From: Capnocytophaga canis | GTDB taxonomy: Bacteria; Bacteroidota; Bacteroidia; Flavobacteriales; Flavobacteriaceae | DNA length: 64,000 nucleotides | Assembly: GCF_000827555.1 (NCBI RefSeq) | Contig: NZ_CDOI01000134.1 | Coordinates: 1 to 64,000, forward strand | Reading direction: 5' to 3' | The notes under the pieces: generated by a model | Told to the model about the DNA's origin: nothing | The model's database searches: none | The model's input: only the letters and a program-made list of their open reading frames with translations | Program-made: the position numbers and the translations under genes | Shown: positions 43,602-56,770 of the stretch, one piece after another | Layout: each line of letters starts with the position of its first letter | Numbering within the stretch: position 1 is the first letter of the stretch

Positions 43602-44387
43602 CTATTTTTCCAATTGGTGTGGATGTTTCAACCCGTTAAAAGAATCTAAATCAGCCACTAAAGATCCTACACGTAAAGTAGCTTTGATGCGCAATGGAAC
43701 GCGATTTTTGTCATCCGAAATCCACATTGTGATACTCTCTTCTTCTTTAAACACACGCCCATCTTGAACTAACGGTCTAAAAATCATAGTATTTTGAGTT
43801 CCAAATTTAGTTTTTATCTTTTCTTTACCTAAGTAACGTAACTTGAATTTGAACACCTCATCATCATCAAAAATCAAATCCATCGCAATTTCCTCTCCCT
43901 TTTGGATATTACTAATCTTTGGATTACTTCGCAACTGATAAAAAGCTGAAATAACATCTTGAATATGTATTGGAACTGAAATTTCAGACAATTCTCCATT
44001 CTCCATATTTTTGATTTTCACTTTATTAACATCGTGATTAAAATCCATTTTTAGGTGCTTAGTGTACCCTCCTTCATAAATATTACGAATGAAATGACGA
44101 GGTTTTCCATCACTGATACCAAAATAGCTTTCGTAGGTATCATCAACCTTAAAAAACACTCTTGCCAAACCCGTTGTAGCTCCTTTTCCTACAGAATGAA
44201 ACACCTTTTCTCCGTTGTAATCAGCTTCTTTAAGCAACAGAGTAGCCTCACTGGCGTTAAAAATTCCGTATTTCACCTTAAATTTTAGCCATTCACCTCC
44301 TTTGAAAGGCAAATCATTATCTTGTGCAATCACCTGTGTTCCAAAAACAGGAAATAAAAAAAGGATATATAAAATTATTCTTTTCAT
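43602..44387 (-). CDS. DUF3108 domain protein
   Basis: A 261-residue secreted protein: signal peptide to about residue 21 (ends VIAQ), then GGEWLKFKVKYGIFNASEATLLLKE, AYYxxxSNPK-like and MWISDDKNRVPLRIKATLRVGSLVADLDSF, the DUF3108 core. Probably periplasmic or outer-membrane linked; function unknown. The gap upstream holds a -7-like TATCTTTG on the minus strand at 44473-44480. Confidence 0.85.
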   Translation of the reverse strand: MKRIILYILFLFPVFGTQVIAQDNDLPFKGGEWLKFKVKYGIFNASEATLLLKEADYNGEKVFHSVGKGATTGLARVFFKVDDTYESYFGISDGKPRHFIRNIYEGGYTKHLKMDFNHDVNKVKIKNMENGELSEISVPIHIQDVISAFYQLRSNPKISNIQKGEEIAMDLIFDDDEVFKFKLRYLGKEKIKTKFGTQNTMIFRPLVQDGRVFKEEESITMWISDDKNRVPLRIKATLRVGSLVADLDSFNGLKHPHQLEK

Positions 44388-44742: not shown

Positions 44743-46722
44743 ATGCTTCCGATCCTAAAAACAGACTCTTTGTTACAACGATTTGCCGACAAAATTCAAG
44801 CTCGACATTCCTATTTTTTGAAAATTTGCCAAAAAATGCGAGGAAATTGTGCCCGTCTGTCTGATAATATAAATTCTCACTTGTTTTACGGATTGCATTT
44901 TACGGAAAATGAATGGATTTTAAGAGAATGGGCTCCGAATGCAACAAAAATATATCTACTTTTTGACAAAAACGATTGGCAACCAACTGAAAAATACGAT
45001 TTTACGAAAATAGACCACGAAAATTGGGAAATTCGTTTGCCAAAATCGGAACTTTCGCACGGCGATTTGTATAAATTATATGTAGAATGGCAAGGTGGTG
45101 GAGCAGAAAGACTTCCCTCACACGTAAAAAGAGTAGTTCAGGACGAATATACAAAAGTTTTTACCGCCCAAGTTTGGCAGCCTGAAAAGCCCTATCAATG
45201 GAAAAATACTCGACCTTCCCAAACGAATTCTCCTCTAATTTATGAAGCTCATATTGGTATGAGCTCCGAACAAAGAAAAGTGACTTCTTTTACCGAATTT
45301 CGTCTGTTTGTGTTGCCTCGAATTGCTTCTTTGGGATACAATACCATTCAACTTATGGCAATTCAGGAACATCCTTATTATGGTTCGTTCGGCTATCAGG
45401 TAGCAAATTTCTTCGCTGTGAGTTCTCGTTTTGGAACGCCTGAAGAGCTTAAAGAGTTGATAGACAAGGCTCACGGATTAGGAATTAAAGTCATTTTGGA
45501 TATTGTGCATTCGCATTCGGTAAGTAACGAAGCCGAAGGATTGGGCTATTTTGATGGCACGGATTATCTGTATTTCCACTCGGGCGAAAGGGGAAAACAT
45601 CCACAGTGGGATTCCCGTTTGTTCGATTACGGAAAACCACAAGTGCTTAATTTTCTTCTTTCTAATTGTAAATATTGGTTGGAAGAATTTCAGTTTGATG
45701 GCTTCCGATTTGATGGCGTTACAAGTATGATTTACCTTCACCACGGATTAGGAAAAGCCTTCACTAATTACTCCTTGTATTATGATGGAAATCAGGATAT
45801 TGATGCGATAACATATCTGACTTTGGCAAATCAGCTTATTCACGAAATACATCCAAAAGCCATCACCATTGCCGAAGAAATGAGCGGAATTCCGGGTTTG
45901 GCGTTTCCTATTGAAGGAGGCGGAATGGGTTTCGATTATAAAATGCATATGGGTGTTCCCGATTATTGGATTAAACTTTTGGAAGATTACAAAGACGAAG
46001 ATTGGCACGTGGGCGATATCTATTACGAACTGACTAACAAACGTTTAGAAGAAAAAACTATTAGTTACGCCGAAAGCCACGACCAAGCCTTAGTGGGCGA
46101 CAAAACGATTTTCTTCCGTTTGGCGGATAAGGAAATTTATTCAGGAATGAGCGTTTTCGACCAAAATTTGGTGATTGACAGAGCCATCGCTTTGCATAAA
46201 ATGATTCGTTTGGTAACCATTGCCACAGCAGGAAATGGCTATTTGGCATTTATGGGGAACGAATGGGGACACCCTGAATGGATTGATTTTCCGCGTGAAG
46301 GAAATAGTTGGAGCTACAATCACGCGCGTCGTTTGTGGAGTTTGCTTGATGATGAAAATCTGAAATTCAAATATTTGAATAATTTTGATAGGGCGATGAT
46401 TCATTTTGTGAAAAAGAATAATTTACTCGAAGAAATGCCTAATATTTTGGTTCGTGATAACGAACGTCAAATTTTAGCTTTTGAACGAGGTGGATTTTTG
46501 TTTGTGTTTAATTTCAATCCGTCAGAGTCGTTTAATAATTATGAATTTGAGGTAGAAGCAGGAAAATACACCTATGTTTTAAATTCGGACAATCCGAACT
46601 TTGGAGGGCAAAATCGTATTGATGAAAATGTCGAGCATTTTACGCAGTACAAACACGAGAAGAATTTAATAAGTTTGTACATTCCGTCAAGGTTAGCTAT
46701 TGTTTTGAAAATGAATGAGTAG
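44743..46722 (+). CDS. glgB: 1,4-alpha-glucan branching enzyme (GH13, eukaryote-like form)
   Basis: A 659-residue GH13 enzyme. CBM48-like N-domain (about 45-145: LHFTENEWILREWAPNATKIYLL), catalytic barrel about 160-540 with VILDIVHSHS, FDGFRFDGVTSM (nucleophile Asp), ITIAEEMSGIPGLA (acid/base Glu) and YAESHDQALVGDK, and a C-terminal alpha-amylase beta-domain. The features are those of the GH13_8-like, eukaryote-type branching enzymes found in Bacteroidota. It makes alpha-1,6 branches in glycogen and opens the glycogen locus. Confidence 0.92.
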   Translation: MLPILKTDSLLQRFADKIQARHSYFLKICQKMRGNCARLSDNINSHLFYGLHFTENEWILREWAPNATKIYLLFDKNDWQPTEKYDFTKIDHENWEIRLPKSELSHGDLYKLYVEWQGGGAERLPSHVKRVVQDEYTKVFTAQVWQPEKPYQWKNTRPSQTNSPLIYEAHIGMSSEQRKVTSFTEFRLFVLPRIASLGYNTIQLMAIQEHPYYGSFGYQVANFFAVSSRFGTPEELKELIDKAHGLGIKVILDIVHSHSVSNEAEGLGYFDGTDYLYFHSGERGKHPQWDSRLFDYGKPQVLNFLLSNCKYWLEEFQFDGFRFDGVTSMIYLHHGLGKAFTNYSLYYDGNQDIDAITYLTLANQLIHEIHPKAITIAEEMSGIPGLAFPIEGGGMGFDYKMHMGVPDYWIKLLEDYKDEDWHVGDIYYELTNKRLEEKTISYAESHDQALVGDKTIFFRLADKEIYSGMSVFDQNLVIDRAIALHKMIRLVTIATAGNGYLAFMGNEWGHPEWIDFPREGNSWSYNHARRLWSLLDDENLKFKYLNNFDRAMIHFVKKNNLLEEMPNILVRDNERQILAFERGGFLFVFNFNPSESFNNYEFEVEAGKYTYVLNSDNPNFGGQNRIDENVEHFTQYKHEKNLISLYIPSRLAIVLKMNE

Positions 46723-46778
46723 TTTTTTAATTGTAGAGTTATTATACAATTAAAAAGATAATGAATAATCAAAATTAA

Positions 46779-47765
46779 ATGATAAATGAAATAAAAATAT
46801 TTACCACTGACGACAAAAAAATTTCATTGCAGGTTTCCTTGGAGAAGGAAACAGTGTGGCTTACGCAGTCGCAAATGTCTTTTTTGTTTGATACAAGTAC
46901 GGACAATATCGGTTTGCATTTGAAGAATATTTTTTTAGAAGAGGAATTAGATGAATTTTCAACTACCGAGGATTTCTCGGTAGTTCGTCAAGAAGGAAAA
47001 AGGCAGGTTAAGAGAACGTTAAAACATTATAATCTTGACGCAATTTTGTCTGTTGGATATAGAGTTAGCTCTAAGAGAGCAACTCAATTCCGCAAATGGG
47101 CGACACAAACCCTAAAACAACACTTGGTTCAAGGTTATACCATTAATGAGCAACGCCTAAAAGAGCGGGGTATCGAATTTAATGAGGTCCTTTCGCTATT
47201 GAGTTCCACTTTGGAAAATCAAACTTTGATAAACGATGAAGGTGTTGCGGTACTGAAAGTTGTGCAAAAATATGCAAAAAGTTGGAGTTTATTACAAGCT
47301 TACGACCAACAGAGCCTACCAAAAAGTTCTTTAAAAAACCAAGAAATGAACGCTTTGCCGTATGAAGACGTTTTAAAAGCCATTGACCAACTCAAAAAAT
47401 CACTCGTTGAAAAGGGTGAGGCTAGTGAACTTTTCGGACAAATACGCAGTAGCGGACTTGAGTCGGCATTGGCTACCATTGAGCAAGGTTTCGGTGAGGA
47501 ATATTTTTACCCCAATGTAGCAAGTAGAGCGGCTCATTTACTCTATTTCATCATAAAAAATCATCCGTTTGCTGATGGAAACAAACGTACGGGAGCATTT
47601 TTGTTTTTATGGTATTTGCGTATCAATCAACATCTTTTGCAAAAACCTGTGGAAAACTTAATCAACGACAATACATTGGTTGCTTTAGCTTTATTAGTTG
47701 CTGAAAGTAAACCTGAACAAAAAGAATTAATAATACGTTTAACAGAACATTTCATTAACGTCTGA
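46779..47765 (+). CDS. RhuM-Fic fusion protein
   Basis: A 328-residue protein. Residues 1-125 are a RhuM-type N-domain (ETVWLTQSQMSFLFDTSTDNIGLHLKNI; HYNLDAILSVGYRVSSKRATQFRKWATQTL). Residues about 195-325 are a Fic/Doc domain with HPFADGNKRTGAFLF (His262). The loop has GNK rather than GNG, which recalls Doc kinases more than AMP-transferring Fic proteins, so the transferred group is uncertain. It lies 56 bases after glgB and only 16 bases before the debranching enzyme, so it is read through with the glycogen genes. No separate antitoxin ORF is visible, so self-restraint by the N-domain is possible. Signs of transfer: it is functionally unrelated to its neighbours. Confidence 0.85.
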   Translation: MINEIKIFTTDDKKISLQVSLEKETVWLTQSQMSFLFDTSTDNIGLHLKNIFLEEELDEFSTTEDFSVVRQEGKRQVKRTLKHYNLDAILSVGYRVSSKRATQFRKWATQTLKQHLVQGYTINEQRLKERGIEFNEVLSLLSSTLENQTLINDEGVAVLKVVQKYAKSWSLLQAYDQQSLPKSSLKNQEMNALPYEDVLKAIDQLKKSLVEKGEASELFGQIRSSGLESALATIEQGFGEEYFYPNVASRAAHLLYFIIKNHPFADGNKRTGAFLFLWYLRINQHLLQKPVENLINDNTLVALALLVAESKPEQKELIIRLTEHFINV

Positions 47766-47781
47766 ATAAAAAAATAAGATA

Positions 47782-49731
47782 ATGAGTTATTTAACATTCA
47801 AAAAGAAAGAATTAATCAATTTGGAATATTCTCTTGACAGAGAGTTTCTTGGCACCAATCGCGGGGGCGGATACAGCTCTTCTACCCTTGTTTTTTGCAA
47901 TACACGAAAATATCACGGACTTTTGGTAGTTCCACTCGAAAATTTCAGAGGACAGAATCACGTCTTGTTGTCTTCACTTGATGAAACCATCATTCAACAC
48001 GGACGCGATTTCAACTTTGCCGTGCATCAATATCCCGAAACGTACGAACCTCGCGGACATAAATATATCGTGGATGTTTCCTACGAAAAAGCCTTTACCG
48101 TTATCTATCAGGTGGGGGGTGTAACACTCAAAAAAGAAATTCTGATGGTGCATAACGAACCTCAGGTTTTGGTGCGTTACACCTTGCTCGAAGCCCACTC
48201 CCCTACTAAGTTGAGGTTGAATCCGTTATTGGCATTTCGTGATATTCATTCGTTAAGTAAAGTCAATGATTTAGCAAACAAAAATATTGAGAAAATTGAA
48301 GGCGGAATCAAAACCAAACTTTATCCTGATTTTCCGTATTTGCATTTGCAGTTAAGCCAAGATACTGATTTTGAATACCAACCGAATTGGAATTGTAATA
48401 TATTTTATAAAAAAGAAAAAGAACGTGGATACGATTATACGGAAGATTTACTCACGCTTGGTTATTTCGAGTTGAATATCAAAAAAGGCGAAAGCGTTGT
48501 ATTTTCGGCAAGTACGGAGGAAAACAACAGCAAACAACTCAAACAGAAATTCACCCGACTTATCAATCAGCGTCGCGAGCGAAACTCGTTTGAGGAATGC
48601 CTTAACTATTCTGCTACACAATTTCTAATTCAGAAAGCAGGAGAAATTCGTGTGAAAGAAGGTTATCATTGGTACAATAGCAACACACGCGATACGTTCA
48701 TCGCTTTACCGGGAATTGCTTTGGCAGAAAACACTCAAAAGACGTTCGATGAGGTACTTACATCAGTTAAAAAATATTTTTCCAATGGACTTTTTGAAAA
48801 AACAGTAAGTACGCACGTAGCTGAACGTCAATATGATGCCGACACTTCACTTTGGTTTTTTTGGACAATTCAGCAGTATGAAAAATACACCAAAAAAACG
48901 CCAAAACAACTTTGGAAAGACTTTGGCGAGTTGATGCGAACCATTTTGGAAACTTACAAAAATGGACAGCATAAATCCATACGAATGGATAACAACGGAC
49001 TGATTTGGTCGGAAGATATTAGTCGTCCGCTAACGTGGGTCGATGCTCAATTTGATGGCGGAGCCATTGTTCCGCGAAACGGTTATGTGGTCGAAGTCAA
49101 TGCGTTGTGGTACAATGCCGTGTGTTACGCAATTGCTTTGGCAGAAGCCTCAAAGGATAAAGATTTTCTGAAAGAATGGAGCGATTTGCCTACGATGATT
49201 GCTGAAAATTTCAATCAAACCTTTTGGATTGCTGACAAAAAATACTTGGCAGATTATGTGAATTATGCTCATCAAAATCGTGATGTTCGCCCCAATCAGT
49301 TGATACCTTGTGCGTTGGCATATTCTCCTCTTGATGAGCGAAGTAAGAAACGCGTTTTGGACATTGTCAGACAAGAATTGCTCACTCCACGAGGATTACG
49401 TTCGTTGTCACCTAAAAATAAAAGTTACGAAAGCGTAAGTATTGGCAACGTGTACGACCGCGACCGAGCTACGTTTAACGGGTCGGTACATCCTTGGTTT
49501 ATAGGATTTTATATAGAAGCTCATTTAAAAATTTACGGAAAAACCTATATCCCTGATGCAGAAGTAATTTTAGCTGATTTCGAGGAAGAATTAAGCGGAC
49601 ACGGCGTAAGTACCATTTCGGCAATTTACGATGGAAATCCGCCATTCCGTTCGCGAGGTTGCATTTCCAAAGCCCGAAATGTAGCCGAAATCCTTCGAGC
49701 CAAACAACTGACAATGAATTATGAGTCGTAA
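47782..49731 (+). CDS. Glycogen debranching enzyme (amylo-alpha-1,6-glucosidase, GH133)
   Basis: A 649-residue enzyme. An N-terminal GDE_N domain (FLGTNRGGGYSSSTLVFCNTRKYHGLLVVPL) is followed by the (alpha/alpha)6 GDE_C domain from about 265, with WYNSNTRDTFIALPGIAL, LIWSEDISRPLTWVDAQFDGGAIVPRNG-type aspartates and NGSVHPWFIGFYIEAHLK. It removes single alpha-1,6-linked glucose at branch points. In Bacteroides the debranching enzyme, GT4 synthase and GH57 genes are neighbours; here two nuclease genes separate it from the GT4 gene. Confidence 0.92.
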   Translation: MSYLTFKKKELINLEYSLDREFLGTNRGGGYSSSTLVFCNTRKYHGLLVVPLENFRGQNHVLLSSLDETIIQHGRDFNFAVHQYPETYEPRGHKYIVDVSYEKAFTVIYQVGGVTLKKEILMVHNEPQVLVRYTLLEAHSPTKLRLNPLLAFRDIHSLSKVNDLANKNIEKIEGGIKTKLYPDFPYLHLQLSQDTDFEYQPNWNCNIFYKKEKERGYDYTEDLLTLGYFELNIKKGESVVFSASTEENNSKQLKQKFTRLINQRRERNSFEECLNYSATQFLIQKAGEIRVKEGYHWYNSNTRDTFIALPGIALAENTQKTFDEVLTSVKKYFSNGLFEKTVSTHVAERQYDADTSLWFFWTIQQYEKYTKKTPKQLWKDFGELMRTILETYKNGQHKSIRMDNNGLIWSEDISRPLTWVDAQFDGGAIVPRNGYVVEVNALWYNAVCYAIALAEASKDKDFLKEWSDLPTMIAENFNQTFWIADKKYLADYVNYAHQNRDVRPNQLIPCALAYSPLDERSKKRVLDIVRQELLTPRGLRSLSPKNKSYESVSIGNVYDRDRATFNGSVHPWFIGFYIEAHLKIYGKTYIPDAEVILADFEEELSGHGVSTISAIYDGNPPFRSRGCISKARNVAEILRAKQLTMNYES

Positions 49732-49734
49732 AAT

Positions 49735-49830
49735 GTAAGGGTGGAATATTTTTCGCCTCTACGATAAAATGTAATCAATGATGTGTACAATGTAAGTAAG
49801 GGCGAAATATTTTTCGCCCCTACGATAAAA
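49735..49830. repeat. Two copies of a short palindromic repeat
   Basis: Copy 2 contains a perfect hairpin GGGCGAAA (49800-49807), loop TATT and TTTCGCCC (49812-49819), followed by CTACGATAAAA. Copy 1 (49735-49769) has the same layout with a degenerate left arm (GGGTGGAA) and the same CTCTACGATAAAA end. Both are preceded by AATGTAAG. They resemble REP-like elements and fill the debranching enzyme-DUF1016 gap. Confidence 0.7.
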
Positions 49831-49853
49831 CACAATCCATAAACGATTAAGGA

Positions 49854-50870
49854 ATGAAAAAAGATACGAAACCATTGAACAAAAATTTACTTTCGGAGCT
49901 TTCCGTCTTAATAGAAAACGGTCAGCAACAGATAGTTTATTATGCCAACAGCACCCTTACCCTTGTCTTTTGGCAGGTTGGAAAGCGTATCAATGAAGAT
50001 GTATTAAACAATGAACGAGCTACTTACGGAAAACGGATTGTACCAATGATTGCCAATGAGTTGGAATCTAAATACGGACGTAATTTTACGGAAAAAAATA
50101 TCCGAAGAATGATGCAGTTTGCAGAGGTATTTCCTGATTTTCAAATTGTCGTTCCACTGGCACGACAATTGAGTTGGTCGCATTTTTTGATACTTATCCC
50201 CCTTAAAAATCACGAAGCAAGAATGTTTTATGCTGAGTTGGCAGTATCTGAAAATTTAGGAAAACGAGAACTTCGTAAGCAAATCACTACCAAAGCCTTT
50301 GAGAGAATGCAAATTGCTAATTTACAGGTTCAACAATCGGAAATTATTCCTATAAACACTTTCAAAGACCCCTATCTATTGGATTTTTTAGGACTTCGAA
50401 GTGATTATTTGGAAAAAGACATTGAAACGGCTATTTTACATAAATTAGAGTCCTTTATTTTAGAACTTGGAAGAGGATTTGCCTTTGTAGAACGCCAAAA
50501 ACGAATGATTATTGATGGAGAAGATTTCTATTTAGACCTTTTGTTTTTCCATAGAAAATTAAAGCGATTGATTGCCATTGAGCTGAAAATCGGTAAATTC
50601 CAAGCCAAACACAAAGGACAAATGGAACTTTACCTCAAATGGTTAAATAAATACGAACGTCAAGAGGGCGAAGAAGCTCCTATCGGACTGATTTTGTGTG
50701 CTGAAAATAGCAAGGAACAAGTGGAACTTTTGGAAATCCATAAAGATGGTATTATGGTTGCCGAGTATTGGACAGAGTTACCTCCTAAAAAACAATTGGA
50801 AAAAAAATTACACGAAGCCTTCATTGAAGCACGTGAGCAGTTTGAAAACAAGGGGTTATTGAATAAATAA
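49854..50870 (+). CDS. DUF1016/YhcG-type PDDEXK nuclease (copy 1)
   Basis: A 338-residue protein. Residues about 10-155 form the DUF1016 N-domain (LVFWQVGKRINEDVLNN, ATYGKRIVPMIANELESKYG, LARQLSWSHFLILI). The C-terminal nuclease domain (about 170-320) has the PDDEXK core Asp228 (FYLDLLFF) and Glu243-x-Lys245 (AIELK). YhcG-type proteins often sit in restriction-modification or mobile islands; the target is unknown. A diverged second copy lies 0.8 kb downstream in the same orientation. Neither is related to the surrounding glycogen metabolism. Confidence 0.9.
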   Translation: MKKDTKPLNKNLLSELSVLIENGQQQIVYYANSTLTLVFWQVGKRINEDVLNNERATYGKRIVPMIANELESKYGRNFTEKNIRRMMQFAEVFPDFQIVVPLARQLSWSHFLILIPLKNHEARMFYAELAVSENLGKRELRKQITTKAFERMQIANLQVQQSEIIPINTFKDPYLLDFLGLRSDYLEKDIETAILHKLESFILELGRGFAFVERQKRMIIDGEDFYLDLLFFHRKLKRLIAIELKIGKFQAKHKGQMELYLKWLNKYERQEGEEAPIGLILCAENSKEQVELLEIHKDGIMVAEYWTELPPKKQLEKKLHEAFIEAREQFENKGLLNK

Positions 50871-50939
50871 AAACGAAATCGGTGAATATGTACGTTACGA
50901 AAAAGCGTATAAATGTTCAGAAGAAAACCTTTTTATAAG

Positions 50940-51160
50940 TAAATATAAATGATAATAATAAAGAATAAAACAGATAATACGTAGAATCTTTATCTTCATA
51001 AGAAGAAAATACTTCTACACGTGAAGAAACAAAATCTTCTGATGAAGAAAATATTTCTTCTTATGGATAATATAATGCTACTGATGAATTATTTAATTCT
51101 TCATTAGAATATAAAAGTTCTACTAAAGAAGATTTTAATTCTACATCTGTTTTATTGTAA
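50940..51160 (+). other. Low-complexity, hairpin-rich stretch with a degenerate Ser/Glu/Asn reading frame
   Basis: This is part of the 335-base gap between the first nuclease and the small coiled-coil gene. CATAAGAAGAAAATA (50997-51011) is nearly the reverse complement of TATTTCTTCTTATG (51052-51065). One frame is open from 51002 to 51157 apart from a single TAA at 51068 and reads EENTSTREETKSSDEEN..., then YNATDELFNSS.... Further upstream the same frame has more TAA codons. Either a decayed acidic coding region or expanded GAAGAA/TTCTTC repeats. Confidence 0.4.
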
Positions 51161-51205
51161 AATCAACAAGAATAACTATTTTTATAATATAAAAGACAAA
51201 TTAAG

Positions 51206-51517
51206 ATGAGAAAAAGGTCATTTGCCGAAATCATCACATCGGCACAACTATTAGTAAAAGCCCTTACCGAACGAGGTGAAAATTTGCCTGTGGGTGTTAC
51301 CGCTCAAATGCGTGACAAACTAAACACTGCCTACCAAAAAGCAGCGGAGGTCAATGTAGAACAGGAAAAACTTAAAGCTCAACTCAAAGAAAAAACCGCC
51401 GAGTTAGAAAAACATATTGCCGAAACGGAAGAGGTATATGCCTTTTTGAAAAAATACATCAAAATGGGCGAACCGCAAGAACGTTGGCGAGAGTTTGGTT
51501 TCGAGGATAAACGATAG
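51206..51517 (+). CDS. Small coiled-coil protein
   Basis: A 103-residue, mostly helical protein: a basic N-terminus (MRKRSFAEIITSAQLLVKAL), a central coiled coil (about 45-85, rich in Lys/Glu/Gln) and a conserved-looking tail ERWREFGFEDKR. Similar small proteins with a terminal WKEFGIEDKR-type motif occur in Bacteroidota and cyanobacteria from memory; function unknown. It lies between the two DUF1016 genes and could be a partner of either. Confidence 0.65.
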   Translation: MRKRSFAEIITSAQLLVKALTERGENLPVGVTAQMRDKLNTAYQKAAEVNVEQEKLKAQLKEKTAELEKHIAETEEVYAFLKKYIKMGEPQERWREFGFEDKR

Positions 51518-51533
51518 GCGGTAAAGATTGCAC

Positions 51534-51564
51534 AATGTAGGGAGGGGATACATCCCTTCCGTAG
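51534..51564. repeat. Short palindromic repeat, second type
   Basis: GGAGGGGAT (51541-51549), loop AC, ATCCCTTCC (51552-51560), preceded by AATGTAG and followed by GTAG. Same flanks (AATGTA...) as the copies at 49.7 kb but a different arm sequence. A further inverted repeat, TTGCTATTG (51598-51606) and CAATAGCA (51648-51655), precedes the next gene. Confidence 0.55.
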
Positions 51565-51686
51565 TTGTAACGTATCAATGTGAGGGCGGATGTGAAGTTG
51601 CTATTGTAATATTTTCGAAATGAATCACAAGTAATAGGTATTTTCAGCAATAGCACTGAAATTCAATAAGATGAAGTTATTAAACA

Positions 51687-52706
51687 ATGAAGCTATTTAC
51701 CGATATAAAAGATATTATTTTACAGGCTCGTGAAAAGGCGATACGCTCAGTCAATAACGCACGTACGCTGATGTATTGGCATATTGGTAAACGTATTTTT
51801 GAGGAAGAACAGCAAGGTAAAAAACGAGCAGATTACGGAAGTTACCTCATTAAGGAGCTTTCTGCCAAGTTAGAACCCGACTTCGGGAGCCTTTGTTCAT
51901 TTCGACAACTGAACTTATATAGGCAATTTTACAAAACTTTCCCAATTGTGAACGCACTGCATTCACAATTGAGTTGGACTCAGTATAAGATACTTATGCG
52001 AATAGATGACCAACATAAACGAGAGTTTTACATCGCCGAAACAACAAAAAATAATTGGACTTCTCGGCAGTTGGAACGACAAATAAACGCTTCTTTGTAC
52101 GAAAGACTTTTGCTTTCGAACGATAAAGAAAGCGTACTTGCCGTTGCTCGAAATGAAAGGCAACCTTCTGACCCAAAGGAAATAATCAAAGACCCTATGG
52201 TTTTGGAGTTTTTGGGTTTGAAACAACAAAGTACCTATTATGAAAAGGATTTAGAAACTAAAATGCTTTCTCATTTACAAGAATTTTTGTTGGAATTAGG
52301 CAACGGATTTTCGTTTGTAGCTCGGCAAAAACGCATTCATATTGAGGGAGATGAGTTTTTTGTAGATTTAGTGTTTTACAATCGTTTATTGCAAAGTTTT
52401 GTGATTATCGAAATCAAAACCGATAAACTTACCCATCAGGATATAGGGCAGCTACAAATGTACGTCAATTATTATGACCGCACACAGAAACTCAGCCACG
52501 AAAACCCAACCATTGGTATTTTGCTCTGTGCCGACAAAAATGACGCTGTGGTAAAATATACCCTTCCTGAGAATCAAAAGCATATTATAACAAGTAAATA
52601 CCAATTGTATCTGCCAACAGAAAAACAACTTTTAGATGAAATACGTAAAGAAATTGAAAATTTTGAAATCAATGAAGAAGATGAAAAACCTGATGAAGTA
52701 CAATAA
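51687..52706 (+). CDS. DUF1016/YhcG-type PDDEXK nuclease (copy 2)
   Basis: A 339-residue homologue of the upstream copy: N-domain (LMYWHIGKRIFEEEQQGKKRADYGSYLI, LHSQLSWTQYKILMRI) and nuclease core Asp227 (FFVDLVFYN) and Glu242-x-Lys244 (IIEIK). The two copies have clearly diverged, so they were not produced by a very recent local duplication. The acidic tail (EINEEDEKPDE) is absent from copy 1. It lies 110 bases ahead of the GT4 enzyme. Confidence 0.9.
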   Translation: MKLFTDIKDIILQAREKAIRSVNNARTLMYWHIGKRIFEEEQQGKKRADYGSYLIKELSAKLEPDFGSLCSFRQLNLYRQFYKTFPIVNALHSQLSWTQYKILMRIDDQHKREFYIAETTKNNWTSRQLERQINASLYERLLLSNDKESVLAVARNERQPSDPKEIIKDPMVLEFLGLKQQSTYYEKDLETKMLSHLQEFLLELGNGFSFVARQKRIHIEGDEFFVDLVFYNRLLQSFVIIEIKTDKLTHQDIGQLQMYVNYYDRTQKLSHENPTIGILLCADKNDAVVKYTLPENQKHIITSKYQLYLPTEKQLLDEIRKEIENFEINEEDEKPDEVQ

Positions 52707-52815
52707 AAATCTTTCATCATAAACAAAAAAAAACAGATTAATTCAGCTTGAAAATAGAGAAAATTAGCAAAATCAATAAAATTTTAAATAGAAACGCCAA
52801 ATAAGTAAGAATGAT

Positions 52816-54105
52816 ATGAGTGTAAAAGTACTAATGTTCGGTTGGGAGTTTCCGCCCCACATCAGTGGAGGGCTTGGCACAGCCTGTTATGGAATCGCCA
52901 AAGGATTAGCAAAGCACAACGTAAATGTTTTGTTCGTGATGCCAAAAGCAGGGGGTGATGAGGATAGTTCCGTCGCACAGATTATAAACGCAAGTGATGT
53001 GGAAATGCTCCAAAATATGGAAAATATTGAGGAGTTTTGGAAGAACATCAACTTTATGGAAATCGGTTCGAATTTAGTTCCGTATTTAGACCCCGAAACC
53101 TTTGCTCGTGAACGCGAAGCCTATCTGAAAACGGGCGAAAACAAAGAAACCATTTCTTTCAGAAATAAATTCCAATTTTCGGGTAAGTATGGTGCCAACC
53201 TGATGGAGGAAGTATATCGGTATGCGTTGGTTGCCGGAACGGTGGCTAAAAATCACCAATTTGATGTTATACACGCTCACGATTGGCTCACGTATAGTGC
53301 AGGAATTGTTGCCAAGAAACTATCGGGAAAACCATTGGTGGTTCACGTACACGCTACCGAATACGACCGAGGTGGCGAACACAACCGTAATACATTGGTA
53401 TACGATATCGAAAAACGCGGAATGGAAGCTGCTGACGTTGTGGTTACAGTGAGTAATTGGACGCGTAACATCGTGGTGGAGAAGTACGGCATCAATCCGG
53501 AAAAGGTTATCACGGTGCATAATGCGGTTGATTTTTCTGCTGAAACTACCGAAAAGGAAGAACGAGGCGTTAAGGAGAAAATCGTAACTTTCTTAGGAAG
53601 AATTACCCTGCAAAAAGGTCCGGAATACTTTGTTGAAGCTGCAGCTAAGGTACTCAAACGGACTCCCAATGTGCGTTTTGTAATGGCAGGAAGTGGCGAG
53701 AAGATGAATCCGTTGGTGCGACGTGTGGCACAATTGGGTATCGGAACGAAATTTCATTTTACAGGTTTCTTAAAAGGTGGCGAAGTACAACGAATGTTCC
53801 GTTATAGTGATGTTTATGTAATGCCTTCGGTTTCAGAGCCTTTCGGGATTTCACCTTTGGAGGCGATGCGTTCGGGTGTGCCTACTATCATTTCGAAGCA
53901 ATCGGGTGTGGCTGAGGTTTTAGACCACGCCATCAAGGTCGATTATTGGGATATTGACGCCCTGGCAGATGCCATTCACGGAATCCTCTCCTATCCTACT
54001 CTTGCCGAATATATGTCACGCGAAGGCTATGATGAGGTAAATCAGCTCAAATGGGAAAACGCCTCTTTGAAACTCAAAACCATTTACGAAAAGCTCGTGG
54101 AATAA
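52816..54105 (+). CDS. GT4 glycosyltransferase, glycogen synthase type
   Basis: A 429-residue GT-B enzyme. MFGWEFPPHISGGLGTACYGIAKGL binds the nucleotide-sugar/acceptor end, VIHAHDWLTYSAGIVAK and FLGRITLQKGPEYFVEAA are typical of the family, and the C-terminal EPFGISPLEAM carries the E-x7-E motif. With the branching, debranching and GH57 enzymes around it, a role in elongating glycogen from a nucleotide glucose is likely, although it is GT4 rather than the classical GlgA family GT5. The gene follows the nuclease insertion. Confidence 0.88.
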   Translation: MSVKVLMFGWEFPPHISGGLGTACYGIAKGLAKHNVNVLFVMPKAGGDEDSSVAQIINASDVEMLQNMENIEEFWKNINFMEIGSNLVPYLDPETFAREREAYLKTGENKETISFRNKFQFSGKYGANLMEEVYRYALVAGTVAKNHQFDVIHAHDWLTYSAGIVAKKLSGKPLVVHVHATEYDRGGEHNRNTLVYDIEKRGMEAADVVVTVSNWTRNIVVEKYGINPEKVITVHNAVDFSAETTEKEERGVKEKIVTFLGRITLQKGPEYFVEAAAKVLKRTPNVRFVMAGSGEKMNPLVRRVAQLGIGTKFHFTGFLKGGEVQRMFRYSDVYVMPSVSEPFGISPLEAMRSGVPTIISKQSGVAEVLDHAIKVDYWDIDALADAIHGILSYPTLAEYMSREGYDEVNQLKWENASLKLKTIYEKLVE

Positions 54106-54275
54106 GGAAAGATAAAAAATTAATGCATATACAAGATATGATAGAGAGAAAGATAAGTAGTTTATCATACGAAAAAGAGTTGAAAACATTTAATTATTAA
54201 ATTCCGATTCCAGACTCTTCAATATATCCAAATCATTTTCTCAGATAACTTTAGGTTTAAAATAATAAAATACAT

Positions 54276-54875
54276 ATGAAATACTTTTTAGCAATTTTAT
54301 TTTTGTCTTGTTTTTCTGTAATGTACAGTCAGAATGAAAGTTTACAAAAGTCGAAGTGGAAAGGTGAAATCTCTTTTGGATTAGGTTCAGCAGAACTCAA
54401 AGGAGAAGCCTTTGAAATCACAGGAAATGTAAACAATATAAACACTTTATTATTTTACAAACTCTCTTCAAAAGGAGGTATATTAACTGGTGTTGGAGTT
54501 ACTCATTTCAACAATGGAGCGCTACTTCCCGATGGTTATAGTCGTGTAAAAGCTACATTCATAGAAATTCCTTTTAAATTAAGAGGATACGTATGGAATT
54601 TTGAACAAACAAATATAAAATTTACACTTAGTGCTGGTTTTCAGTTCAATAAAGCGATAAAATACCATCAAAAAATCAACAGTGTAACTTTTGAACCTCC
54701 TAAAACAGACTGGTACGTTGATTTTCCGTTAGAAATTGGTGTAGAAATTCCATTAGGAAAAGATTGTAGCTTTGGTATTTATTCACAGAATAATTATTTT
54801 GTAGGAAATAAAACCAAAAAATACATAATGAAAAATTATAATCTATTGAAATTGTCTTTAATATATAATTTTTAA
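54276..54875 (+). CDS. Outer-membrane beta-barrel-like protein
   Basis: A 199-residue secreted protein: signal peptide to about residue 18 (ends VMYSQ), then about eight amphipathic strands (GEISFGLGSAEL, FIEIPFKLRGYVW, FTLSAGFQFNKAI, FPLEIGVEIPL) and a terminal LLKLSLIYNF, the aromatic-ended last strand of a barrel. No family name assigned. It lies between the GT4 and GH57 genes, but the following terminator and promoter separate it from the latter. Confidence 0.7.
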   Translation: MKYFLAILFLSCFSVMYSQNESLQKSKWKGEISFGLGSAELKGEAFEITGNVNNINTLLFYKLSSKGGILTGVGVTHFNNGALLPDGYSRVKATFIEIPFKLRGYVWNFEQTNIKFTLSAGFQFNKAIKYHQKINSVTFEPPKTDWYVDFPLEIGVEIPLGKDCSFGIYSQNNYFVGNKTKKYIMKNYNLLKLSLIYNF

Positions 54876-54896
54876 AAAAACTAAAAAGTCAATAGT

Positions 54897-54932
54897 AAAG
54901 CCCAGATTACAATGAAATGCGATCTGGGCTTT
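54897..54932 (+). terminator. Rho-independent terminator
   Basis: AAAGCCCAGAT (54897-54907) pairs perfectly with ATCTGGGCTTT (54922-54932). Confidence 0.8.
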
Positions 54933-54971
54933 CTATTTCAGTAAAATATAATTTCTTTTTTTGTTAATCTC

Positions 54972-55002
54972 TTGCTTTAATCATTAAAAATTTATAATTT
55001 TG
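54972..55002 (+). promoter_or_regulatory. Promoter of the GH57 gene
   Basis: TTG at 54972-54974, a 20-nt spacer and TAATTTTG at 54995-55002; ATG at 55092. The GH57 gene can thus be expressed apart from the upstream glycogen genes. Confidence 0.7.
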
Positions 55003-55091
55003 AGCGTTGAATGACAAAATCAAAAACCAATCTGATAAGACTAACTTTTTAGCATAAAAATCAGTGTAAACAGCAAAAAACAACTTTATTT

Positions 55092-56282
55092 ATGAAAAAG
55101 TCAATCTGTATTTATTTCCAAATACATCACCCCGAACGACTTAGAAAATATCATTTTTTTGATATAGGAAAGAAACATAATTATTTTGACAATTACGCCA
55201 ATCGTTCTGAATTGGAGGAACTTGCCGAAAATTGCTATCTCCCAACCAATGCATTGCTGTTGGATTTAATCAAAAAATACGACGGAAAATTCAAGGTTGC
55301 CTTTTCGATTTCAGGTTCGGCAATCGACCAATTAAATATGCACACTCCTGAGGTTATCCGCTCGTTTCAAGAACTTGCTGAAACTGGTAATGTGGAATTT
55401 TTGGCGGAAACCTATTCGCATTCATTGGCTTCTCTTTCAGAGGATTCGGACGAATTTGAACAACAAGTAAAACGCCACGTAAATGTGGTAAAAAGTCTTT
55501 TTGGGAAGAAGCCCGTAACCTTCCGAAATACGTCTTTGATTTATTCTGACAAAATCGGAGAGCGAGTAGCCAAATTGGGTTTCAAAACGATGCTTACCGA
55601 CGGAGCAAAACACGTTTTGGGTTGGAAAAGTCCTAACTTTGTGTATAAAAATCCGATAGATGAAAATCTAAATTTACTACTGAAAAACAGCAAATTAAGT
55701 GATGATATTGCCATTCGATTTTCTGACAGACAATGGAGCGAATATCCGCTTACTTCCGAGAAATATGCTTCGTGGGTAAAACATAGTTTGGCAGAAACCG
55801 AAGTGCTTAATCTGTTTATGAATTACGATGTTATCGGTCATTACAATCGCAAAGAAAGTGGTATTTTCGACTTTTTGGAGTATTTTGTAAAAAATATGAT
55901 GGAAGATGATGATTATCAGTTTCTTCTTCCGAAAGAAGTTGTTAAAAAACATACTGCGAAAGATGTTTTGCCCGTTCCTTTTCCAATTTCGTGGACAGAC
56001 GAAGAACGTGACATTACTTCGTGGCTCGGAAACGAATTACAGAAAGAGGCGTTCAACCAATTATTTAGAATTCAGTCTATTGTAAAGAAGAAAAAGAACG
56101 CAGAATTGTCCGACGATTACGGACGATTACAAGCAAGTGAACATTTTTATCATATGCGGACTAAACTCTTCTCTACTTCGGATTATCATAAGTATTTCAC
56201 TCCGTATGATTCTCCTTACGAGGCGTTTATCAACTATATGAACGTTTTGAGTGATTTTGAGGTACGTTTGGAAGAAAAGTAA
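55092..56282 (+). CDS. GH57 alpha-glucan-active enzyme (alpha-amylase type)
   Basis: A 396-residue GH57 enzyme. IYFQIHHPERLRKYHFFDIG at the N-terminus, KVAFSISGSAIDQL, and EFLAETYSHSLASL (with the likely nucleophile Glu) are the family hallmarks; NYDVIGHYNRKESGIFDFL probably holds the acid. Cytoplasmic (no signal). It completes the branching-debranching-GT4-GH57 set for storage and use of glycogen. Confidence 0.9.
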   Translation: MKKSICIYFQIHHPERLRKYHFFDIGKKHNYFDNYANRSELEELAENCYLPTNALLLDLIKKYDGKFKVAFSISGSAIDQLNMHTPEVIRSFQELAETGNVEFLAETYSHSLASLSEDSDEFEQQVKRHVNVVKSLFGKKPVTFRNTSLIYSDKIGERVAKLGFKTMLTDGAKHVLGWKSPNFVYKNPIDENLNLLLKNSKLSDDIAIRFSDRQWSEYPLTSEKYASWVKHSLAETEVLNLFMNYDVIGHYNRKESGIFDFLEYFVKNMMEDDDYQFLLPKEVVKKHTAKDVLPVPFPISWTDEERDITSWLGNELQKEAFNQLFRIQSIVKKKKNAELSDDYGRLQASEHFYHMRTKLFSTSDYHKYFTPYDSPYEAFINYMNVLSDFEVRLEEK

Positions 56283-56346: not shown

Positions 56347-56670
56347 ATGATCGCGATAGTTATTTTAAGTTTATGCTATATTGTCGTAGCTTTTTTAGTT
56401 ACAGAAAAGAATGCTGAACAAACCCTTTCAGGCTACAATACAATGTCAGAAGAAGAATGCAAAAGAGTGGATATAAGGACTTATATTCCATTTTTTAAGA
56501 GATTTCATCTGTTTTTGGGAATTTCATCGTTCATTGGTGGAACAATGATTCTTTATTTTATAAACGAACATTGGGGTATACTTTTCACTATATTTTACCC
56601 TCTTGTCATTTACCCTTATTTTATTTGGAAAGGAAAAAAGTCCGATAATAATACCGGACTTTTCCATTAA
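56347..56670 (+). CDS. Small membrane protein, DUF3784-like
   Basis: A 107-residue protein with three hydrophobic helices (about 2-17, 52-72, 76-94). The segment LSGYNTMSEEECKRVD is typical of DUF3784 proteins. Function unknown. Its last codons are also a strong terminator hairpin (GGAAAAAAGTCCG ... CGGACTTTTCC, 56632-56665), so the transcript ends at the stop codon. Confidence 0.75.
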   Translation: MIAIVILSLCYIVVAFLVTEKNAEQTLSGYNTMSEEECKRVDIRTYIPFFKRFHLFLGISSFIGGTMILYFINEHWGILFTIFYPLVIYPYFIWKGKKSDNNTGLFH

Positions 56671-56735
56671 CCAACCAAAACTTTAAATTATGAAAACTAT
56701 TATTTGAAGTTTTGCAATGAGCTACCACCCTCATT
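56634..56735 (-). ncRNA. Candidate small RNA of about 100 nt
   Basis: On the minus strand a promoter at 56742-56770 predicts a start near 56735. The RNA would begin with a perfect hairpin, CAATGAG-GGTGGTAG-CTCATTG (56714-56735), continue through an A/U-rich single-stranded part and end in AAAGTCCG-N10-CGGACTTTTTT (56634-56663), a textbook intrinsic terminator. No protein is encoded and no minus-strand gene follows. It overlaps the 3' end of the DUF3784-like gene by the terminator only. Function is unknown. Confidence 0.5.
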
Positions 56736-56741
56736 GCATTG

Positions 56742-56770
56742 CAAAGGTACAAATAATTTTCAATACACAA
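56742..56770 (-). promoter_or_regulatory. Promoter of the candidate small RNA
   Basis: Minus-strand TTG (56768-56770), an 18-nt spacer and TACCTTTG (56742-56749), pointing away from the DUF4431-like gene. Confidence 0.6.

Follow-up and report, generated by a model that had tools for sequence, protein, structure and literature searches.

The window analysed here, a 64,000-nt stretch of Capnocytophaga canis DNA, carries on its minus strand, at positions 56741–56634, a structured non-coding RNA gene for which sequence analysis, folding and comparison with homologues delineate a promoter, two hairpins and an intrinsic terminator. The gene is ~108 nt long, with a predicted 5ʹ end (± a few nt), and matches a covariance model over its full length (E = 5.7e-28). 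The minimum free energy of the RNA is −31.6 kcal/mol, as compared with −16.4 ± 2.98 kcal/mol for dinucleotide shuffles (z = −5.09), 0/200 of which folded equally well. An earlier note on this DNA had stated that no gene explains the arrangement. One small correction applies: the 3ʹ end of a DUF3784 open reading frame on the plus strand (56347–56670) lies antisense to the final 37 nt of the RNA (56670–56634). We rejected the possibility that the RNA encodes a peptide because of frame-breaking indels among its copies. In the alignment of homologues, a 1-nt indel in an A-run breaks the frame in several copies, as does the rewriting of stems, and no reading frame is conserved.

By its sequence, the promoter is of the Bacteroidota sigma-ABfr type. 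A −33 element, TTG (56770–56768), lies 18 nt upstream of a −7 element, TACCTTTG (56749–56742); this is the minus-strand pair and spacing that the earlier note had proposed, and it is kept in relatives. The position of the TTG is retained in the alignment, and a TAnnTTTG-type −7 element is present in 22/22 aligned Capnocytophaga copies and in 159 of the 162 scored loci. A GTTAAA box, presumably a regulator site, is found 41 bp upstream of the −7 element (56790–56785, minus strand). Of 159 scored loci, 157 have GTTAAA within the interval 25–60 nt before the −7 element, whereas a control stretch gave 1; although loci from one genus are not independent of each other, many genera retain the box. 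It nearly always starts 41–43 nt before the −7 element, and a second repeat 10–11 bp from it is common. The near-fixed distance implies that a dedicated transcription factor acts at the box. In 400-kb samples of other genomes, the same box and distance occur at a few exported-protein genes, too few for a regulon to be called. The exported-protein genes with GTTAAA ~41 bp upstream of TAnnTTTG (L165:16883, L167:10908 in genome G016, L158:6565 in G256 and L127:18676 in G109) are possible members of the regulon of the same transcription factor.

The RNA begins with a hairpin (56737–56714) that has arms GCAATGAG and CTCATTGC and loop GGTGGTAG. This hairpin had been recognized from the sequence as a perfect stem of 7 bp; the stem in fact has 8 bp. 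In the predicted minimum free energy structure, it is followed by an A/U-rich hairpin (56713–56677) with UUUUCAU in its loop, then by the single-stranded GGUUGGUUAAUGG, and finally by the intrinsic terminator (56664–56634), a strong hairpin around GTCCGGTA..TATCGGAC with a T-run that ends at 56634. The strong terminator had been correctly anticipated at the end of the RNA; it is absent from the output of our consensus scan because the loop limit of the scan is 8.

Comparison of 48 aligned homologues strongly supports this structure. Standard pairs account for 97.3% of cells, and there are 205 two-sided changes versus 42.6 ± 5.8 in shuffles, counts that lean towards the structure because the covariance-model alignment is fitted to the model. 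No slid structure came close to the actual structure in paired-change support. Paired changes in the 5ʹ hairpin and the terminator, suggested beforehand as a check, were found at all 8 and all 10 pairs, respectively, with 99% of terminator cells paired. The second hairpin has weaker support, with two-sided changes at 4 of 9 pairs. In the raw sequences, the GGGUGGU loop is retained while the 5ʹ stems that enclose it are exchanged completely (GCAATGAG/CTCATTGC, TCAAGAG/CTCTTGA, GTAAGG/CCTTAC).

Conservation in close relatives had been set beforehand as one of the points on which the proposal of a small RNA would stand or fall, and the proposal withstood this test. The whole promoter-to-terminator unit is present in most congeneric genomes by BLAST, and in 16 of 20 Capnocytophaga genomes by covariance model; carriers include C. 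cynodegmi DSM 19736 and C. periodontitidis p1a2. Across the 20 species searched with the model, six have two or three dispersed copies, and several copies are in unrelated genomic contexts. The RNA is also found in 106 of 121 genomes of one sampled genus, taken to be Flavobacterium, and among the matches listed in a scan for the exact core (described below), most are from Flavobacterium species, with others from Paenimyroides, Myroides and Robertkochia. Covariance model R1 identified the RNA in 104 of 299 Flavobacteriaceae genomes at E ≤ 1e-3, the weakest of which may include false matches, and in 76 genomes at E < 1e-5. Hence, about a quarter or more of the sampled Flavobacteriaceae genomes carry it. 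Outside the family, there was no convincing match among 198 genomes of the class (model R1) or 296 genomes of the order (model R2) at E ≤ 1e-4, filters strict enough that weak homologues may be missed; the sole match outside the family (genome G510, E = 9e-5) is without the core and looks false. No Rfam 15 family scored above its gathering threshold for the RNA: the window matches only tRNAs, and the best lax matches are far below threshold.

Positions 56741–56634 are an independent RNA gene, conserved and structured, whose promoter has the architecture of a regulated one. Like a trans-encoded sRNA, it has its own promoter, with fixed geometry, and its own terminator, which covaries, and it is non-coding. 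The earlier note, working from a single sequence, saw the locus as a small RNA equipped with a promoter, a 5ʹ hairpin and an intrinsic terminator of its own; conservation, covariation and the copies in unrelated contexts support this view, and we infer that the gene is transcribed. This region has many promoter-like matches to a general consensus, as would be the case if a promoter, a hairpin and a terminator had come together by chance in an A/T-rich intergenic gap. However, the covariation, the fixed promoter geometry and the family-wide conservation refute a chance origin, the probability of which is vanishingly small.

In relatives, the RNA has a near-constant neighbour. Of the 151 loci with an identifiable core, 122 have a DUF3108 gene 3ʹ of the RNA and in the same orientation, mostly 100–250 nt away, and some of the remaining loci are truncated contigs. 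This arrangement would be expected if the RNA were a cis-acting leader or attenuator of DUF3108, with formation of the terminator setting the level of read-through. However, a sigma54-like promoter, e.g. TTGGCATAATGCTTGCA or TTGGAATAGAATTTGCA, lies between the terminator and DUF3108 in relatives, the RNA is multicopy, and in C. canis and other Capnocytophaga the RNA and DUF3108 are unlinked and yet both kept. In the window, the DUF3108 gene (43602–44387, minus strand), with its own sigma54-like promoter, TGGCATAATGATTGT (44456–44442), is ~12 kb from the RNA. This distance indicates that the two are independent units, and the retention of the RNA away from DUF3108, in up to three copies, indicates that it acts on its own. 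We therefore rejected a cis-acting leader, which is very unlikely given that neither obligate linkage nor a shared transcript fits the unlinked copies and the gene's own promoter. Sigma54-like promoters are conserved before Flavobacteriaceae DUF3108 genes (L003, L004, L104, L298), even where there is no neighbouring RNA.

The ~12-kb block between the RNA and DUF3108 (44743–56282, plus strand) is present only in the arrangement of this genome, and looks like an insertion or rearrangement; the order purL–RNA–DUF3108 is kept in C. cynodegmi. The block includes glycogen-metabolism-like genes, two DUF1016-like nuclease genes and one RhuM/Fic-like gene, with roles judged by eye except for those of GH57 and DUF3108. 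A strong intrinsic terminator, AAGGTGCGTAAACACGCACCTT with a T-run, is located just downstream of purL (57575–57554, minus strand). We found no description of the RNA, or of the function of DUF3108, in the literature.

With what does the RNA interact? The stretch that follows the 5ʹ hairpin had been described only as A/U-rich. It is A/U-rich, but it also includes a near-invariant core that the earlier note passed over, UUUUCAUAAUUUAAAGUUUUGGUUGGUUA (56696–56668, minus strand), which is invariant within Capnocytophaga and nearly so across the family. The 5ʹ arm of the second hairpin varies (AAACUUCAAAU, AACUUUAA, AUAUAAAUU) while its 3ʹ arm is nearly constant. Since the 3ʹ arm and core remain constant as the 5ʹ arm changes, the constraint comes from outside the RNA, and not from internal pairing. 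The core, read 5ʹ to 3ʹ, is the reverse complement of UAACCAACCAAAACUUUAAAUU AUG AAAA, i.e. of a flavobacterial leader and start codon, and this complementarity exists in all of the main variants. The earlier note had suggested that the GGTGG loop could pair with other RNAs, and this loop is conserved (GGGUGGU). We presume, however, that positions 56696–56668, 3ʹ of the loop, are the strongest candidate for pairing.

In three genomes, pairing between start regions and the core is ~2 sd stronger than with shuffled versions of the core, with no regulon standing out, but upstream leaders alone pair with it no better than with shuffles. Ungapped scans of sampled genome stretches with the core gave no excess of matches. 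Pattern scans of Capnocytophaga for a large regulon of extended complementarity returned almost only the RNA itself. The target scans covered sampled stretches of the genomes. Since no regulon of long complementarity was found in that genus, pairing of the core over start codons would presumably involve a short, imperfect seed. In other genomes, the matching mRNA starts are mostly those of exported proteins (lipoproteins, SusC-type receptors and two homologous secreted proteins from different genera), a bias that may stem from the ATGAAA required by the search pattern, which favours signal peptides. We also considered the SusC-type receptors of C. canis as obvious targets, and rejected them: their leaders do not match the core.

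We propose that the RNA is a regulated, Flavobacteriaceae-wide sRNA with a core that pairs in trans to block translation starts, and with envelope targets, a reading that we hold with slightly more belief than doubt. Transcription would initiate at the sigma-ABfr promoter, and a factor that recognizes the GTTAAA box, ~42 bp farther upstream, probably stimulates it; the product would be an RNA of ~108 nt ending at its own terminator, consistent with the conservation of the unit. The core would pair in trans with mRNA start regions, CAU over AUG and GGUUGGUUA over a AACCAACC-like leader, and this pairing would block translation initiation. The targets might be a modest set of mRNAs for exported or outer-membrane proteins, and the 5ʹ GGGUGGU hairpin probably contributes to stability or protein binding.

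Two other modes of action would fit part of these data. The RNA has two conserved GGU-rich elements, one of them in a hairpin loop, that are unchanged while stems change, and no targets with long complements were found; both facts are consistent with an RNA that sequesters an RNA-binding regulator or chaperone via the GGGUGGU loop and the GGUUGGUU stretch, without pairing to mRNA. We regard this as unlikely, since it leaves the near-invariance of CAUAA and of the A/U-rich part of the core unexplained, and there is no known protein partner. Alternatively, the RNA could bind one or a few specific mRNAs via its 5ʹ loop or another part, with the antisense-leader likeness of the core being incidental. 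An A/U-rich, leader-like sequence could match starts by chance, and the scans revealed no regulon, but CAU and GGUUGGUUA are retained even in members that have diverged far and in RNAs whose promoter is of another type, which makes an incidental likeness distinctly unlikely.

Flavobacteriaceae include major marine, soil, fish-pathogenic and oral bacteria, and post-transcriptional control in this family is, to our knowledge, almost uncharted. The sRNA described here is highly conserved and mostly single-copy, its promoter box is fixed, and its neighbour is nearly constant. It gives a directly testable entry point, with a candidate seed, a promoter box through which its regulator might be found, and a gene open to deletion in the model species F. 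johnsoniae. In enterobacteria, regulated sRNAs of the RybB/MicA type mask the start regions of outer-membrane protein mRNAs, as we propose for the core; however, their sequences are unrelated, they belong to another phylum, and no sigmaE or Hfq link is evident here. We regard FopS and GibS of Bacteroides thetaiotaomicron as the closest working analogue, with no relatedness implied. These sRNAs pair with translation initiation regions, and FopS represses translation of SusC (PMC11697453). They have in common with the RNA described here the phylum Bacteroidota, sigma-ABfr promoters, paralogous copies and an intrinsic terminator. The FopS consensus, derived from Bacteroidaceae and deposited in Rfam, consists of a single-stranded 5ʹ seed and a terminator, with no 5ʹ hairpin (PMC11697453). 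In contrast, the flavobacterial RNA starts with a covarying hairpin and does not have this seed-then-terminator layout, and, despite that deposition, no Rfam model matches it.

Rfp18 of Flavobacterium psychrophilum, compared by description only, may be a homologue. It is a structured, independent sRNA, conserved in Flavobacterium and linked to exported proteins (metalloproteases and an adhesin), with predicted pairing in its third stem-loop, and it raises the levels of two target mRNAs (PMC9723704). The RNA described here is likewise widespread in Flavobacterium, and it has three helices where Rfp18 has at least three stem-loops. However, Rfp18 is predicted to pair through its third stem-loop and raises two target mRNAs, whereas the core is proposed to mask starts. 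If Rfp18 is a homologue, part of the family has been described before, and what is new is the breadth, structure and promoter logic of the family.

Searches with the 3ʹ module of the RNA identified further RNAs, in about a dozen genera, with sigma54-like promoters (TTTGGCAC...TTGAA), a hairpin with GAGUGGUUAC, then UUCAUAUUUUUGGUUGGUUAG and a terminator; one genome has three tandem copies (L108:208–672). The module is carried both by the sigma-ABfr/GTTAAA-box RNA and by the sigma54-like-promoter RNA, which has a similar GUGGUUA hairpin. We tentatively suggest, as a possibility about which we have considerable doubt, that a Flavobacteriaceae 3ʹ module (the anti-start-codon UUCAUA...GGUUGGUUA and terminator) on at least two differently controlled RNAs forms a family-wide layer of translational control of envelope-protein synthesis. 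Sharing of the module through descent or selection would indicate a common partner or target logic. Likely sRNAs of the second class, with the GAGTGGTTAC hairpin, TTCATATTTTTGGTTGGTTAG and a terminator, are also present at L261, L263, L266, L274 and L283 (near position 1500). Lastly, at L212 and L286 (G183:C1, about position 718500), the 3ʹ module (TTTCATAATAGTTTTTGGTTGGTTAGTTGG and terminator) lies directly behind an open reading frame ending in ..GRIRNTKGRV, as if it were a 3ʹ-UTR-derived RNA.
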